Assembly (NCBI GenBank): GCA_937884085.1
Contig: CAKZYD010000214.1
Location: forward strand, 1-32,688
Reading direction: 5' to 3'
DNA length: 32,688 bases
DNA from: an uncultured Sphingomonadales bacterium
GTDB taxonomy: Bacteria > Pseudomonadota > Alphaproteobacteria > Sphingomonadales > CAKZYD01
Position 1 is the stretch's first letter. Each line of letters begins with the position of its first letter. This document shows positions 14,134 through 27,450 of this stretch, in pieces. A program made the position numbers and the translations under genes. The notes beneath the pieces were generated by a model. That model saw only the letters and a list, made by a program, of their open reading frames with translations. It was not told where the DNA came from and made no database searches.

Positions 14134-15504
14134 TTACACAGCGACTGAATGCTGCGCTGCTTTTGCGCGCAGATAGGCATCGAACACGGCCGCCACAGTG
14201 CGCACAAGTGGCGCGCCCGCCTTCGTCATGGTGATGCGATGGGCCGCGTCCCGATAGATGAGCCCGTCTCGCTCCATTTGCGCCAAGTCTGTCTCGACCT
14301 CTGCATACCATCCCAGCGGCGCTTTATGCTGGGCTGCCGCCGCAGCCAGATCGACGCGGCCGTTGCACATCAGTTGCTCAATCACCCAGCCGCGCAGCGT
14401 GTCATCGGCAGTCAACGCGCAGCCTTTGGCGATGGGCAGCGTGCCTGCTTCTACCGCCCTTGTCCAAGCACGGGTCTCGGCAATGCTTTGGGTATAGCCA
14501 TGCGGTGTGCGGCCTATGGATGTGGCCCCCATACCAAGCAAAGTGGTGGCGGTGTCGGTCGTGTAGCCCTGAAAATTGCGCCGCAACGTGCCTTGGCGCA
14601 CGGCAAGGGCGAGCGGGTCGTCAGGCACTGCGAAATGATCAAGGCCGATGGCAACATAGCCCATGGCGACCAGAGCTTCAGACGCCGCCTTGGCTTGGGC
14701 CAGCCGTTCGGCTGCTCCAGGGAGCGCGGCGGCATCAATCATCCGCTGCGCTTTGGCCATCCAGGGCACATGAGCATAGCCGAACAAGGCGACGCGATTG
14801 GGCCGCATAGCCGCGCACAGCTCGATGGTGCGGGTTAGTGTTCCAACCGTTTGATGCGGCAGGCCGTAAATTAGGTCGAAATTGATGTTGGCGATGCCAG
14901 CAGCACGCAAACCATCGACCGAAGCGCGGACCATATCGGGGGGCTGGACGCGGTTGATGGCGAGTTGGACCTGTGGGTCAAATTCCTGCACGCCGAAGCT
15001 GGCACGGTTGAAGCCAAGGCCGGCGAGATGTTTAATCATGTCGCCAGACAGCGTTCTGGGGTCACTCTCAATGGCCAGTTCTGCATCGGACGCAAAGCTG
15101 AAATGGTGGTCAATGACCTCCATCGCGTGGCCGAGGTCGCTTTCACTCAGAGAGGTGGGCGTGCCGCCGCCCCAATGCATGTGGCTTACGCGCATGCGGG
15201 TTGGCAGATAACCGGCCACCAGGCCAATCTCTTTGCGCAGCGTCGCCGCATAGTCTGCAATCGGCTGATAGCGGGCCGATAGCTTCATGTTGCAGCCGCA
15301 ATACCAGCAGACTTTCTTGCAGAAAGGGACGTGCAGGTAGAGGGAGAGCGGGTCGAGCGGGTCTAAAGCGCTAAGCCAAGTCGCATAGTCATCAGGCCCA
15401 ATGTCCGGTGAAAAATGCGGCACTGTCGGGTAACTCGTGTACCGTGGGACGGCTCTGGTTGCGTAGCCGCTTAGTCTTTGGTCCATTGTCGTCCTTTTCC
15501 CCAT
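14134..15504 (-). CDS. hemN: Oxygen-independent coproporphyrinogen III oxidase (radical SAM)
   Basis: [37 protein letters not shown] (CxxxCxxC), HMHWGGGTPTSL, GVQEFDPQVQLAINRVQP, NFDLIYGLPHQT. Confidence 0.94.
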   Translation of the reverse strand: MGKRTTMDQRLSGYATRAVPRYTSYPTVPHFSPDIGPDDYATWLSALDPLDPLSLYLHVPFCKKVCWYCGCNMKLSARYQPIADYAATLRKEIGLVAGYLPTRMRVSHMHWGGGTPTSLSESDLGHAMEVIDHHFSFASDAELAIESDPRTLSGDMIKHLAGLGFNRASFGVQEFDPQVQLAINRVQPPDMVRASVDGLRAAGIANINFDLIYGLPHQTVGTLTRTIELCAAMRPNRVALFGYAHVPWMAKAQRMIDAAALPGAAERLAQAKAASEALVAMGYVAIGLDHFAVPDDPLALAVRQGTLRRNFQGYTTDTATTLLGMGATSIGRTPHGYTQSIAETRAWTRAVEAGTLPIAKGCALTADDTLRGWVIEQLMCNGRVDLAAAAAQHKAPLGWYAEVETDLAQMERDGLIYRDAAHRITMTKAGAPLVRTVAAVFDAYLRAKAAQHSVAV

Positions 15505-16099
15505 CCGGCGCGTCTGGCAACGTTACTTCAAATTTGCATAAGCCCGCGTCGCCCTTGCCGCAGACATGGCGCACCTCTGTCCCCCGCGCCACCAGCTGGT
15601 CGAAGAGCCGCGTGAAAACGGCGCTATGCCAAACACAGTCTGGCATCACCAGCGGATTGTCTTTGACCGTAATCATTGCGGGGCTGCCAGGCGTTGTTTC
15701 GCATTGGCCTGAGCCGACGAAGGTCCACGCGTTTTTCTTAATGGCTTTCAGCAGCAAGCGCTGTGCCAGGCGCTGTGGGGCAAGCCGCAGGATACCCTTT
15801 ACAAAGCCAGGAATGCGATTGGCGATGACATAGTCGGCTGTGCGCACACCTGCATCATGGGCAAGGGTCGGCGCCTCTTTCGGATGCACGTGCCAAAGCG
15901 CCTGATAGAGCGCGACCGGGACACGCTCATCGGTCATATCCTCAGGCGGCGTCTCTAGCATGTCCGGCACACCGGCATGGCTGAACACACGCACCGCCTC
16001 AGCCTGGCCGAGCCGGTCTGTCACCGCATGGCCAAGCTGGATAACGGCATTTGGTCCTATCTTGCCGTTTGGCGGCGTATTAAGCGCTGGGCTGGTCAT
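15392..16099 (-). CDS. bchJ: BchJ-like protein (4-vinyl reductase / V4R-domain, bacteriochlorophyll biosynthesis accessory)
   Basis: [18 protein letters not shown]...[21 protein letters not shown]...LYQALW...[44 protein letters not shown]; position directly after bchE. Confidence 0.88.
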
Positions 16100-17762
16100 G
16101 CAAAATGCTCCGTTTCATCGGTGCAAGGCTTTCGGCCATTTGCTCGTCTCCGCCGCCGCAGGCTTTCACGGCCATCCGCTCTTTGGCGCGTTCCTTGCCT
16201 TGGGCTTTTAGAGCGGCGCGCCGTTCGGCGGCCTTGGCGGCCAAGTCGGCGGAGGCTTGCCAATCCTCCATCTGCGCTTCGGCGATTTGGCGGGTTTCAT
16301 CGAAGTCAAAATGCACATTCTTCTTTGACTGCGGGCCCCAATAATTGGCCTTACCCAAGTCATAGAAGGTGCGCTGCACGCCCGCCTTTAAAAAGGCTTT
16401 TAAGCAGCCCAGCAAATAGCGGCGCCTAAAGCCAGTGCCGCGCCAGGGGTAATGGAACAGCGCTTTGCGGGAATAAAAGCGCCGGTAGTTGTGCATCACC
16501 CGGTCAAGCAATGTCGCCCGGTCCATGGCCTTGGGCGCCATAATGGGCGTGACGAAGTTGTATTTCGAAAAGTCAAAGACCTCCACTTGGTCCTTGAGGT
16601 CCTGAAACAGCGGCGTGAACGGCCAGGGCGTATACATGGACCAGTTGGCTAGGTCCGGTTGCCAATCCCAAGCCATCTGGAAGGTCTCTTCGAGCGTTTC
16701 CGGCGTCTCATTGTCCAGCCCAACGATGAACTGGGCTTCCACAAAGATATCGGCCTCGCGAAGCAAGCGAATAGCTTCCTTGTTGTCGGCGACCTTCGTT
16801 TCTTTGTTGAAAGTATCGAGCTTGAGCTGCGCGGCGGCCTCGGTACCCAGCGAGACGTGCACCAGGCCCGCTTTGCGATATAGCGGCAGGAGCTCCTTAT
16901 CGCGCATGATGTCGGTCACGCGGGTATTGATGCCCCACTTGACTCTGTCAGGCAGGTCGCGGGCAATCAGCTCCTCACAGAATTGAACGAACTTCTTGCG
17001 GTTAATTGTGGGCTCCTCATCGGCCAAGATGAAGAAGCCGACATCATGGTCGTTGACCAGCGTTTCAATCTCATCGACCACCTTTTTCGGGTCCCGCACC
17101 CGATAATCACGCCAGAACTTCCACTGGGAACAAAAAGAGCAGGTGAACGGGCACCCGCGTGCCAAATTGGGGATAGCGACCCGCACCCCGAGCGGCACAT
17201 ACATGTATTTCGACCATTCCAAGATGGTCCAATCCGGATTGATGCCGTCCAAATCCTTGACGGTCGGCGCGGCTTGTGTAGCCGTAATTTCATCGCCATC
17301 GCGGAAGGCGAGGCCCTTGATATCAGTACGGTTGGCAGGCCAGTTGCCTTCATCAATAGTGCGAATCAGCTCTAAGAAAATCTCTTCACCTTCACCCCGG
17401 ACAATCACGTCCACCCAAGGCGCTTCGGAGAAAACCTGCTTATACATGAAGGTGGCGTGCACACCGCCCAGAACGCGCACGGCACCGGGACAAACATCCT
17501 GAGCAATTTTTAGGGTTTCTTCCGCCATATAAATGGAGGGCGTAATGGCCGTCGTGCCGACCACGTCAGGCTGCAGCTCTTTAAGGCGTTCGGCAACGGC
17601 CTCATTATCCAGATCATTGGTCATGGCATCAATGAAGTGGAGGTCAGTATAGCCCGCATCGCGCAAATGGCCGGAGAGATATGCGGCCCAAGCCGGCGGC
17701 CAATTGCCCGCAATCTCCGCGCCACCTGAATGATAATTGGGGTGAATCAGAACGATGCGCAT
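16080..17762 (-). CDS. bchE: Mg-protoporphyrin IX monomethyl ester anaerobic oxidative cyclase
   Basis: 560 aa; [33 protein letters not shown] with B12-binding-like domain, radical [37 protein letters not shown]-terminal ACGGGDEQM. Confidence 0.94.
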
Positions 17763-17778
17763 AGCCAGCCTCTCCGTT

Positions 17779-17796
17779 TGTCTAAAAATACTGACA
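17779..17796. promoter_or_regulatory. CrtJ/PpsR-type operator 1: TGTctaaaaatactgACA
   Basis: Exact TGT-N12-ACA, 17 bp upstream of the bchE start codon. Confidence 0.75.
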
Positions 17797-17803
17797 GAAA
17801 CAT

Positions 17804-17821
17804 TGTCTAATTAATTTGACA
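17804..17821. promoter_or_regulatory. CrtJ/PpsR-type operator 2: TGTctaattaatttgACA
   Basis: Second exact TGT-N12-ACA; both begin TGTCTAA and end TGACA, 25 bp centre to centre. Confidence 0.75.
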
Positions 17822-18251
17822 TACATCATTTTTTGGCGGATTGGCGCAAAGGCTTTTGGCTTGATTGAGCGGCGGGCTAAGGCATCAATCGTGCTTAGCT
17901 AGATTTGAGGTTTAGCCAAGGCCGCAGCATGCCGCTCAAGCTTCAAGTGCTGAGTTGGAACAGCCTCCGTCCAGATTTGAGCTTTAAGCCCATTGCTGCC
18001 GTCCGAAACCCATTGCTGAAAGTCCGCTTTGCAATAGAAAACCGGCATTATGGGAGGCAAATTTAGGAGAGGATGGTGCTTACCCTAGCATCAACTAAAA
18101 TCGGCACACCAAAGAAAACACTGCTCAGCCCTTTTGTCTTCATAGCCAACTCAATTGAATGCGCAGGAAATCGTCGATCGATCGGCCTTTGTGTCGACCA
18201 TTCGGAATGAAGATCCGTTTAATTGCGAGCGTGTCCTAGCTACCTCAAAGA

Positions 18252-26020: not shown

Positions 26021-27106
26021 TTAGCCCTGGCCCTTCATCATTTGGGCTTTCGCAGCACCCCACCAGGCTGGCAGCTCAGGGTCTGCATGGGTGGGAATGG
26101 ACTGACCTTCCGCTACAGGCGCCGGGCTTTGCTCACGCGAATACCATTCCAGTGAAGACAAGGATGGCTCTTCCCAAACGTCTGGTGCGACCAGATATTT
26201 CGGATACTTCGCTTCCACATATTCCAGCGTCTTGGGATTGACTTTGTTGATGTCATCCACGGCGCCCATGAAGATGTTATATTGGCAATGGCCAGGGGTT
26301 GGGCCCATCAGCATCCAAGGCAGCCACGGCGTCGTGCGGCTCCAGGTGCCGTGATACTCAACGCTGGTCTTCTCTGGATTTTGCATGTCTGCCCAATTGA
26401 TGTTGAACAGGAAGTGCTCCGTCACCTGGTTGAATTCACCAGAGCTTTCGCGCTTCCACTTCGATGGCTGCAGAGCATTGGGGTACCAGAGATTGATATA
26501 GCGATGGAGCAGCAGGTCATCGCCTTTGCGTTTCCAGTCTAGAACCAGCGGATCGTATTTTTGCTCTTCTTTGCGCAGCCCGCCATAGGCTGGGCCTTTC
26601 GGTTTGAAGGGCGTAACGTGATTGTTGAAGGGGTCGTTGGCAATCGGCACGACCTTCTGCTTCTCATTGAAATAAGGATTGGTCCATTCTTCCAGAACTT
26701 CACCCGTCTCAAGGTCAGTATAAAGGCCAATCTCGCGCAGGACTTTTGAGTAGCCAACATAGCCTTCCGGCAGCTCAGGGCCTTGATAGGGAATGAACTT
26801 TGCCGTGGAGAGGAGCAGGAAGCCAACCAGGTCGCGCACAGCCTCGCCCGGGCGTACGCCTTGGACAATGCCTTCACCCCAGCCGAATTTGGTCGATTCC
26901 ATATCCAAATTAGCCATCAGCTTTGCATAAGCCGTGGCGGTGTCCTGTGGATCGCTGAGATCGAGGTGGTTGCCTTTGATATTGGTATCCCAGCCTTGCG
27001 GGGCTGCCGCCGCCTGCGCTGGGGTTTGCGACATAGCCGCTGCGCTGCTCGCCATTCCTGCTGCAGCAACGCCGCCCGAGGCCATCACGAAATGTCTACG
27101 GTCCAT
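26021..27106 (-). CDS. DUF1838-like secreted protein, predicted Tat substrate
   Basis: MDRRHFVMASGGVAAAGMASSAAAMSQ Tat-like signal; ORF extends to 27211 but GGAGAGA precedes the 27106 Met; family call from overall sequence (GEAVRDLVGFLLLSTAKFIPYQGPELPEGYVGYSKVLREIGLYTDLETGEVLEEWTNPY). Confidence 0.7.
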   Translation of the reverse strand: MDRRHFVMASGGVAAAGMASSAAAMSQTPAQAAAAPQGWDTNIKGNHLDLSDPQDTATAYAKLMANLDMESTKFGWGEGIVQGVRPGEAVRDLVGFLLLSTAKFIPYQGPELPEGYVGYSKVLREIGLYTDLETGEVLEEWTNPYFNEKQKVVPIANDPFNNHVTPFKPKGPAYGGLRKEEQKYDPLVLDWKRKGDDLLLHRYINLWYPNALQPSKWKRESSGEFNQVTEHFLFNINWADMQNPEKTSVEYHGTWSRTTPWLPWMLMGPTPGHCQYNIFMGAVDDINKVNPKTLEYVEAKYPKYLVAPDVWEEPSLSSLEWYSREQSPAPVAEGQSIPTHADPELPAWWGAAKAQMMKGQG

Positions 27107-27450
27107 GACATCTCTCTCCTTCATAAGATTCTGTGAAGTACCAGATAGGCCAAAGCACCAAGGAAGCACGGCAAGGCCTGCCAGAGTGTTCGACCAGCGA
27201 GCAAAAAGCATGATTTATGCAAATGCTATCACACGCTTAACACCGGCGGGGCGATGGTCTGACTTAGGTGTCTATGGCTAGGCTTTAGTCTCGCAAAAAG
27301 CCTGACTCCAGCTGCTAAAGCCCTCTTTCCACGATAGAATATGCTTAAGCGGTAACCTTAATGCGCGATACAGCCAGCCACAAGGGCTCAAAGGATCGGC
27401 CTCAAATAGTGACAAATATATGCAAACACCGAAACAAATGGCATTGTAAA

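Follow-up and report, generated by a model that had tools for sequence, protein, structure and literature searches.

In the closest described systems, binding of a PpsR/CrtJ repressor ahead of bchE has been established by experiment. Chromatin immunoprecipitation sequencing (ChIP-seq) of Rhodobacter sphaeroides PpsR found bchEJ to be enriched 21.9-fold, with two motifs in the region and derepression in the mutant (PMC4344238), and R. capsulatus CrtJ likewise gives a ChIP peak at bchE with the consensus TGT-N12-ACA (PMC5362033). The sites of the R. capsulatus bchEJGP operon are listed among distant sites, which lie 45 to 500 bp apart (PMC6199135). The R. capsulatus bchC promoter carries two adjacent CrtJ palindromes, 8 bp apart, that cover the −35 and −10 regions (PMC5362033, PMC6199135) and are bound by CrtJ cooperatively (PMC5362033). 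Activation has been described as well: an FnrL/CrpK box ahead of R. sphaeroides bchE was shown to be functional by mutation (PMC4263372), and regions occupied by FnrL in R. sphaeroides and R. capsulatus include ATGAT-type boxes at cco (ATGATgtcgATCAA, beside a second box [PMC2908626]) and at bchF (ATGACATGGGTCAA [PMC4634722]).

The window, a 32,688-nucleotide stretch of DNA from an uncultured Sphingomonadales bacterium, encodes on its minus strand an anaerobic Mg-protoporphyrin IX monomethyl ester cyclase, BchE (16080 to 17762), recognized by TIGR02026 (834 bits; cutoff, 481) and by Pfam domains of the B12-binding and radical SAM types. The bchE ATG occupies 17762 to 17760 and is preceded on the same strand by the ribosome-binding site GGAGAGG (17769 to 17775), read from the sequence. 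Also on the minus strand are bchJ, of the 4-vinyl reductase family (15392 to 16099; TIGR02019, 136 bits, above cutoff), and hemN, for an oxygen-independent coproporphyrinogen III oxidase (14134 to 15504; TIGR00538, 462 bits), which overlaps bchJ and apparently belongs to the same operon. The resulting order, bchE-bchJ-hemN, differs from the bchEJGP order of R. capsulatus, and unlike bchE of Rhodobacter, the operon lies away from the recovered bch and crt contigs. In this respect it resembles bchE-bchJ of Dinoroseobacter shibae (Dshi_2637/2636 [PMC10890935]), which has locus tags far from the main photosynthesis cluster in an organism that also has acsF but which, unlike the operon here, does not continue into hemN. 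An adjoining arrangement of hemN and bchJ (14134 to 17762 in the window) was otherwise seen only in the same-order relative G012 (locus L033), and at locus L092 a more distant hemN-like gene lies on the other side of bchE.

The original prediction described two perfect tandem TGT-N12-ACA palindromes, 7 bp apart, located 17 to 59 bp upstream of the bchE ATG. Reading of the sequence confirmed both sites, which together span positions −17 to −59 relative to the ATG and sit between the minus-strand bchE gene and a long intergenic stretch. The proximal predicted PpsR/CrtJ-type operator, TGTCTAAAAATACTGACA, occupies 17779 to 17796 (−34 to −17), and the distal one, TGTCTAATTAATTTGACA, occupies 17804 to 17821 (−59 to −42), neither being assigned to a strand; the gap between them is 7 bp, in contrast to the distant sites listed for R. 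capsulatus bchEJGP. The term "perfect" held for the TGTC and GACA arms but not for the full 18 bp, over which eight of nine positions pair in the distal site and five of nine pair in the proximal site. Single TGT-N12-ACA matches were not enriched, as five were found in the window against 4.55 expected by chance, and the evidence therefore rests on the pair. Under the assumption of independent bases, the expected number of TGTC-N10-GACA pairs with a gap of 0 to 20 bp is about 0.00014 per window.

Pattern searches of the 3.8-Mb assembly, a genome scan proposed with the original prediction, found the exact arrangement TGTN12ACA-N7-TGTN12ACA at only two places, one at bchE and the other beside ppsR (contig C301, 288 to 330). 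The latter pair lies just beyond the 3′ end of ppsR and faces an open frame on the minus strand that is cut off by the start of the contig. The exact pair with an 8-bp gap occurred at three places: ahead of bchF (C301, 2816 to 2859), ahead of pucBA-pucC (contig C166, 26034), and within an open reading frame (contig C429, 11654), the last of which was taken as a chance match because of its location in coding DNA. Pairs with one mismatch were found ahead of bchC (contig C226, 4741) and between crtD and crtE (C226, 2668). At the bchF-side locus, bchF, bchN, bchB, and bchL were identified, with bchH and bchM assigned by Pfam, and at the puc locus a PUCC protein was found and the light-harvesting beta and alpha reading frames were recognized by eye. 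We conclude that tandem pairs mark photosynthesis operons on several contigs.

A PpsR homologue, the absence of which would have spoken against the proposed operator, was found by profile search at C301, 359 to 1666 (region 335 to 1765), scoring 371 bits against the TIGR02040 cutoff of 275. The protein has PAS domains and a Fis-type helix-turn-helix (HTH), and its gene is neighbored by bchF and by an AerR/PpaA-like gene with a B12-binding domain. Moreover, the genome carries acsF, bchFNBHLM, bchCX, bchDO, crt, and puc genes as well as pufM, the last cut by a contig end, a broad photosynthesis gene set that marks a phototroph and shows, as proposed, that the bchE operon is not a relic. Both cyclase genes, bchE and acsF, are thus present in one genome (contigs C214 and C301). 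Among 61 genomes of the order, PpsR exceeded the cutoff in seven and a close BchE was present in three, this genome being counted in each case. Oxygen sensing by CrtJ depends in part on C249 and C420 (PMC5362033). The HTH cysteine is retained in the PpsR of this genome (KLCIETAL), but the PAS-domain cysteine that forms the R. sphaeroides and R. capsulatus disulfide is absent at that position, leaving one of the two cysteines required for disulfide-type redox control; redox sensing by this PpsR may therefore differ. Light or redox control could possibly proceed by another route that involves the AerR/PpaA-like partner or relies on the single cysteine. The predicted tie of the operon to the control of photosynthesis genes is supported by PpsR and by the tandem sites at photosynthesis operons; its redox component calls for caution, as the published cysteine pair is incomplete here.

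To compare bchE promoters, 80 bchE loci from named genomes, of which 79 had sufficient upstream sequence, were combined with two relatives and the window to give 82 readable promoters; these come from Alpha- and Gammaproteobacteria, mostly Rhodobacterales, such that the counts are not independent events. TGT-N12-ACA was found within 200 bp upstream of bchE in 77 of the 82 promoters, and nearly always within 100 bp, but in only 6 of the 82 in the control region from −500 to −300. The commonest spacing between sites was a 25-bp period, with 16 exact pairs, at about −59 and −34 as in the window. The distal site is conserved in position, and the proximal position, −34, recurs in many bchE promoters. 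A partner site at 25 or 26 bp with at most one mismatch was present in 49 of 77 promoters, compared with 2 of 77 at control offsets. Two Woeseiaceae loci and one Oceanicaulis locus among the 82 lacked both motifs, the PpsR type and the FNR type discussed below.

Taken with the PpsR encoded in the genome, the tandem sites at other photosynthesis operons, the conservation in 77 of 82 promoters, and the binding reported in Rhodobacter, the tandem sites very probably constitute the PpsR (CrtJ) operator of bchE, in support of the original interpretation. The operator could instead belong to a different regulator that recognizes a TGTC-N10-GACA-like sequence, such as a protein of the TetR or IclR type with its gene in the window. 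The window does encode TetR-, IclR-, and AraC-type regulators, and a further TGTC-N10-GACA at 27093 to 27110 lies near a TetR-type gene, although inside an open reading frame. The same tandem pairs, however, stand ahead of photosynthesis operons on other contigs and ahead of bchE in many unrelated genera, and PpsR is known to bind the motif at bchE (PMC4344238). Binding by one of the regulators encoded in the window instead of PpsR found no support, and we consider it highly improbable. The frequency of lone TGT-N12-ACA matches in the window would also be expected if the sites were short inverted arms that arose by chance in AT-rich intergenic DNA. Chance would produce tandem pairs very rarely, however, and they are found at photosynthesis promoters, with a position and spacing that have been conserved from genus to genus; a chance origin was rejected for its conflict with that rarity and conservation, and its probability is close to negligible. 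The PpsR operator of bchE is best viewed as a further example of an operator type already described, and its mechanism is essentially known.

The FNR/FnrL box is a TTGAT-N4-ATCAA-like palindrome, for which promoters were scanned as TTGA-N6-TCAA. A perfect match was present at about −67 in 74 of the 82 bchE promoters. In 57 of these, the distal PpsR site, allowing at most one mismatch, began 8 bp inside the box, such that the TGTCAA sequence was common to both. At the matching position in the window lies a candidate FNR-like box, ATGATGTATGTCAA (17816 to 17829, minus strand), which has one mismatch in the scanned core and a TGTCAA half that doubles as the outer half-site of the distal PpsR palindrome. 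This overlapping box was missed by the original prediction and was added in the present analysis. ATGATGTATGTCAA is one base away from TTGATGTATGTCAA of loci L073 and L114, and one-mismatch boxes occur about 0.5 times per kb by chance. The FnrL/CrpK box of R. sphaeroides (PMC4263372, PMC2908626) is found at an equivalent distance from the bchE start, but it reads TTGACatgcATCAA and lacks the TGT overlap, whereas the sequence here, ATGATgtatGTCAA, has TGTCAA in common with the distal PpsR site. We found no description of an FNR/PpsR half-site overlap at bchE in the open-access literature.

One way in which the overlap could matter is if bchE promoters broadly form a composite operator, with TGTCAA as a half-site common to the FNR box and the distal PpsR palindrome at a fixed 8-bp offset. 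Binding of the anaerobic activator and binding of the aerobic repressor would in that case preclude each other at the gene for the oxygen-sensitive cyclase, and the window would represent a variant in which the FNR half is weakened. We rate this proposal as evenly balanced. Alternatively, bchE of this lineage may be under PpsR control only, the FNR-like box being a vestige to which FnrL has ceased to bind after a change of the first base of the box (A for T). That the window has one mismatch where 74 of 82 promoters have a perfect box, and that the same-order relatives G012 and G028 retain perfect boxes at bchE, would fit such a loss. Against it, FnrL in Rhodobacter occupies regions with ATGAT-type boxes (PMC2908626, PMC4634722), and a box of the same form, ATGATATATGTCAA, also overlaps a PpsR site at the crtE/crtD promoter (locus L024 on C226, 2680 to 2693). 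Moreover, the genome encodes an FnrL-like protein, the one strong Crp/Fnr match (contig C330, 11600 to 11833 region; a 255-amino-acid frame), for which FnrL was the best model at 150 bits, below the equivalog cutoff of 300, and which carries C-x2-C-x7-C and an ETLSR recognition helix. Loss of FnrL control seems a real possibility that falls somewhat short of an even chance, and the probability that FnrL acts at bchE in this organism is about even.

A consensus scan called no sigma-70 promoter at the tandem-site region. A weak candidate −10 element, TATTTT (17785 to 17790, minus strand), may be present within the proximal operator, as judged from sequence and geometry. If the FNR-like box acts as a class II site centered near −41.5, we infer that transcription would start approximately 18 nucleotides before the ATG, which would place the distal PpsR site over the −35 region and the proximal site over the −10 region. 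The predicted arrangement resembles that of R. capsulatus bchC in having two adjacent palindromes and differs in the gene, in the 7-bp gap, and in having a start site that is deduced. The repressor site at bchE corresponds to those of R. sphaeroides bchEJ (PMC4344238) and R. capsulatus bchE (PMC5362033, PMC6199135) in motif, gene, and regulator class, with the difference that binding there was found by experiment and here is predicted.

We propose that the tandem operator overlaps the promoter of the bchE-bchJ-hemN operon and that PpsR, when bound to the two palindromes, would occlude the −35 and −10 regions and keep the operon off under oxygen. The AerR/PpaA-like partner, with its B12 domain, may extend the PpsR shutoff to some light conditions. 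When oxygen drops, PpsR would loosen, and an FnrL-type activator could switch on the anaerobic cyclase through the box that overlaps the distal PpsR site. As the box shares TGTCAA with the distal site, the sequence suggests that FnrL and PpsR exclude each other on bchE.

The BchE protein of the window shares 79 to 82% identity with several proteins from Rhodobacterales and Hyphomicrobiales but 72 to 76% identity with proteins of its own order. In a BchE tree that had long branches and weak support, the window sequence fell nearer to Hyphomicrobiaceae and Rhodobacterales than to G012 and G028 of the same order, and an origin separate from theirs is possible. No claim of transfer is made, because the G012 and G028 branches are long and the support in the tree is weak.

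The analysis indicates that the bchE operon of this uncultured phototroph belongs to the normal photosynthesis regulon, although the contig that carries it is separate from those with the other pigment genes. A PpsR operator at bchE is already known in related bacteria, and the FNR-box overlap is the part worth following. The overlap between FNR and PpsR boxes is conserved and, if it operates as proposed, would provide a simple, testable rule for why a cell that has two cyclases would produce the anaerobic enzyme only in the absence of oxygen.
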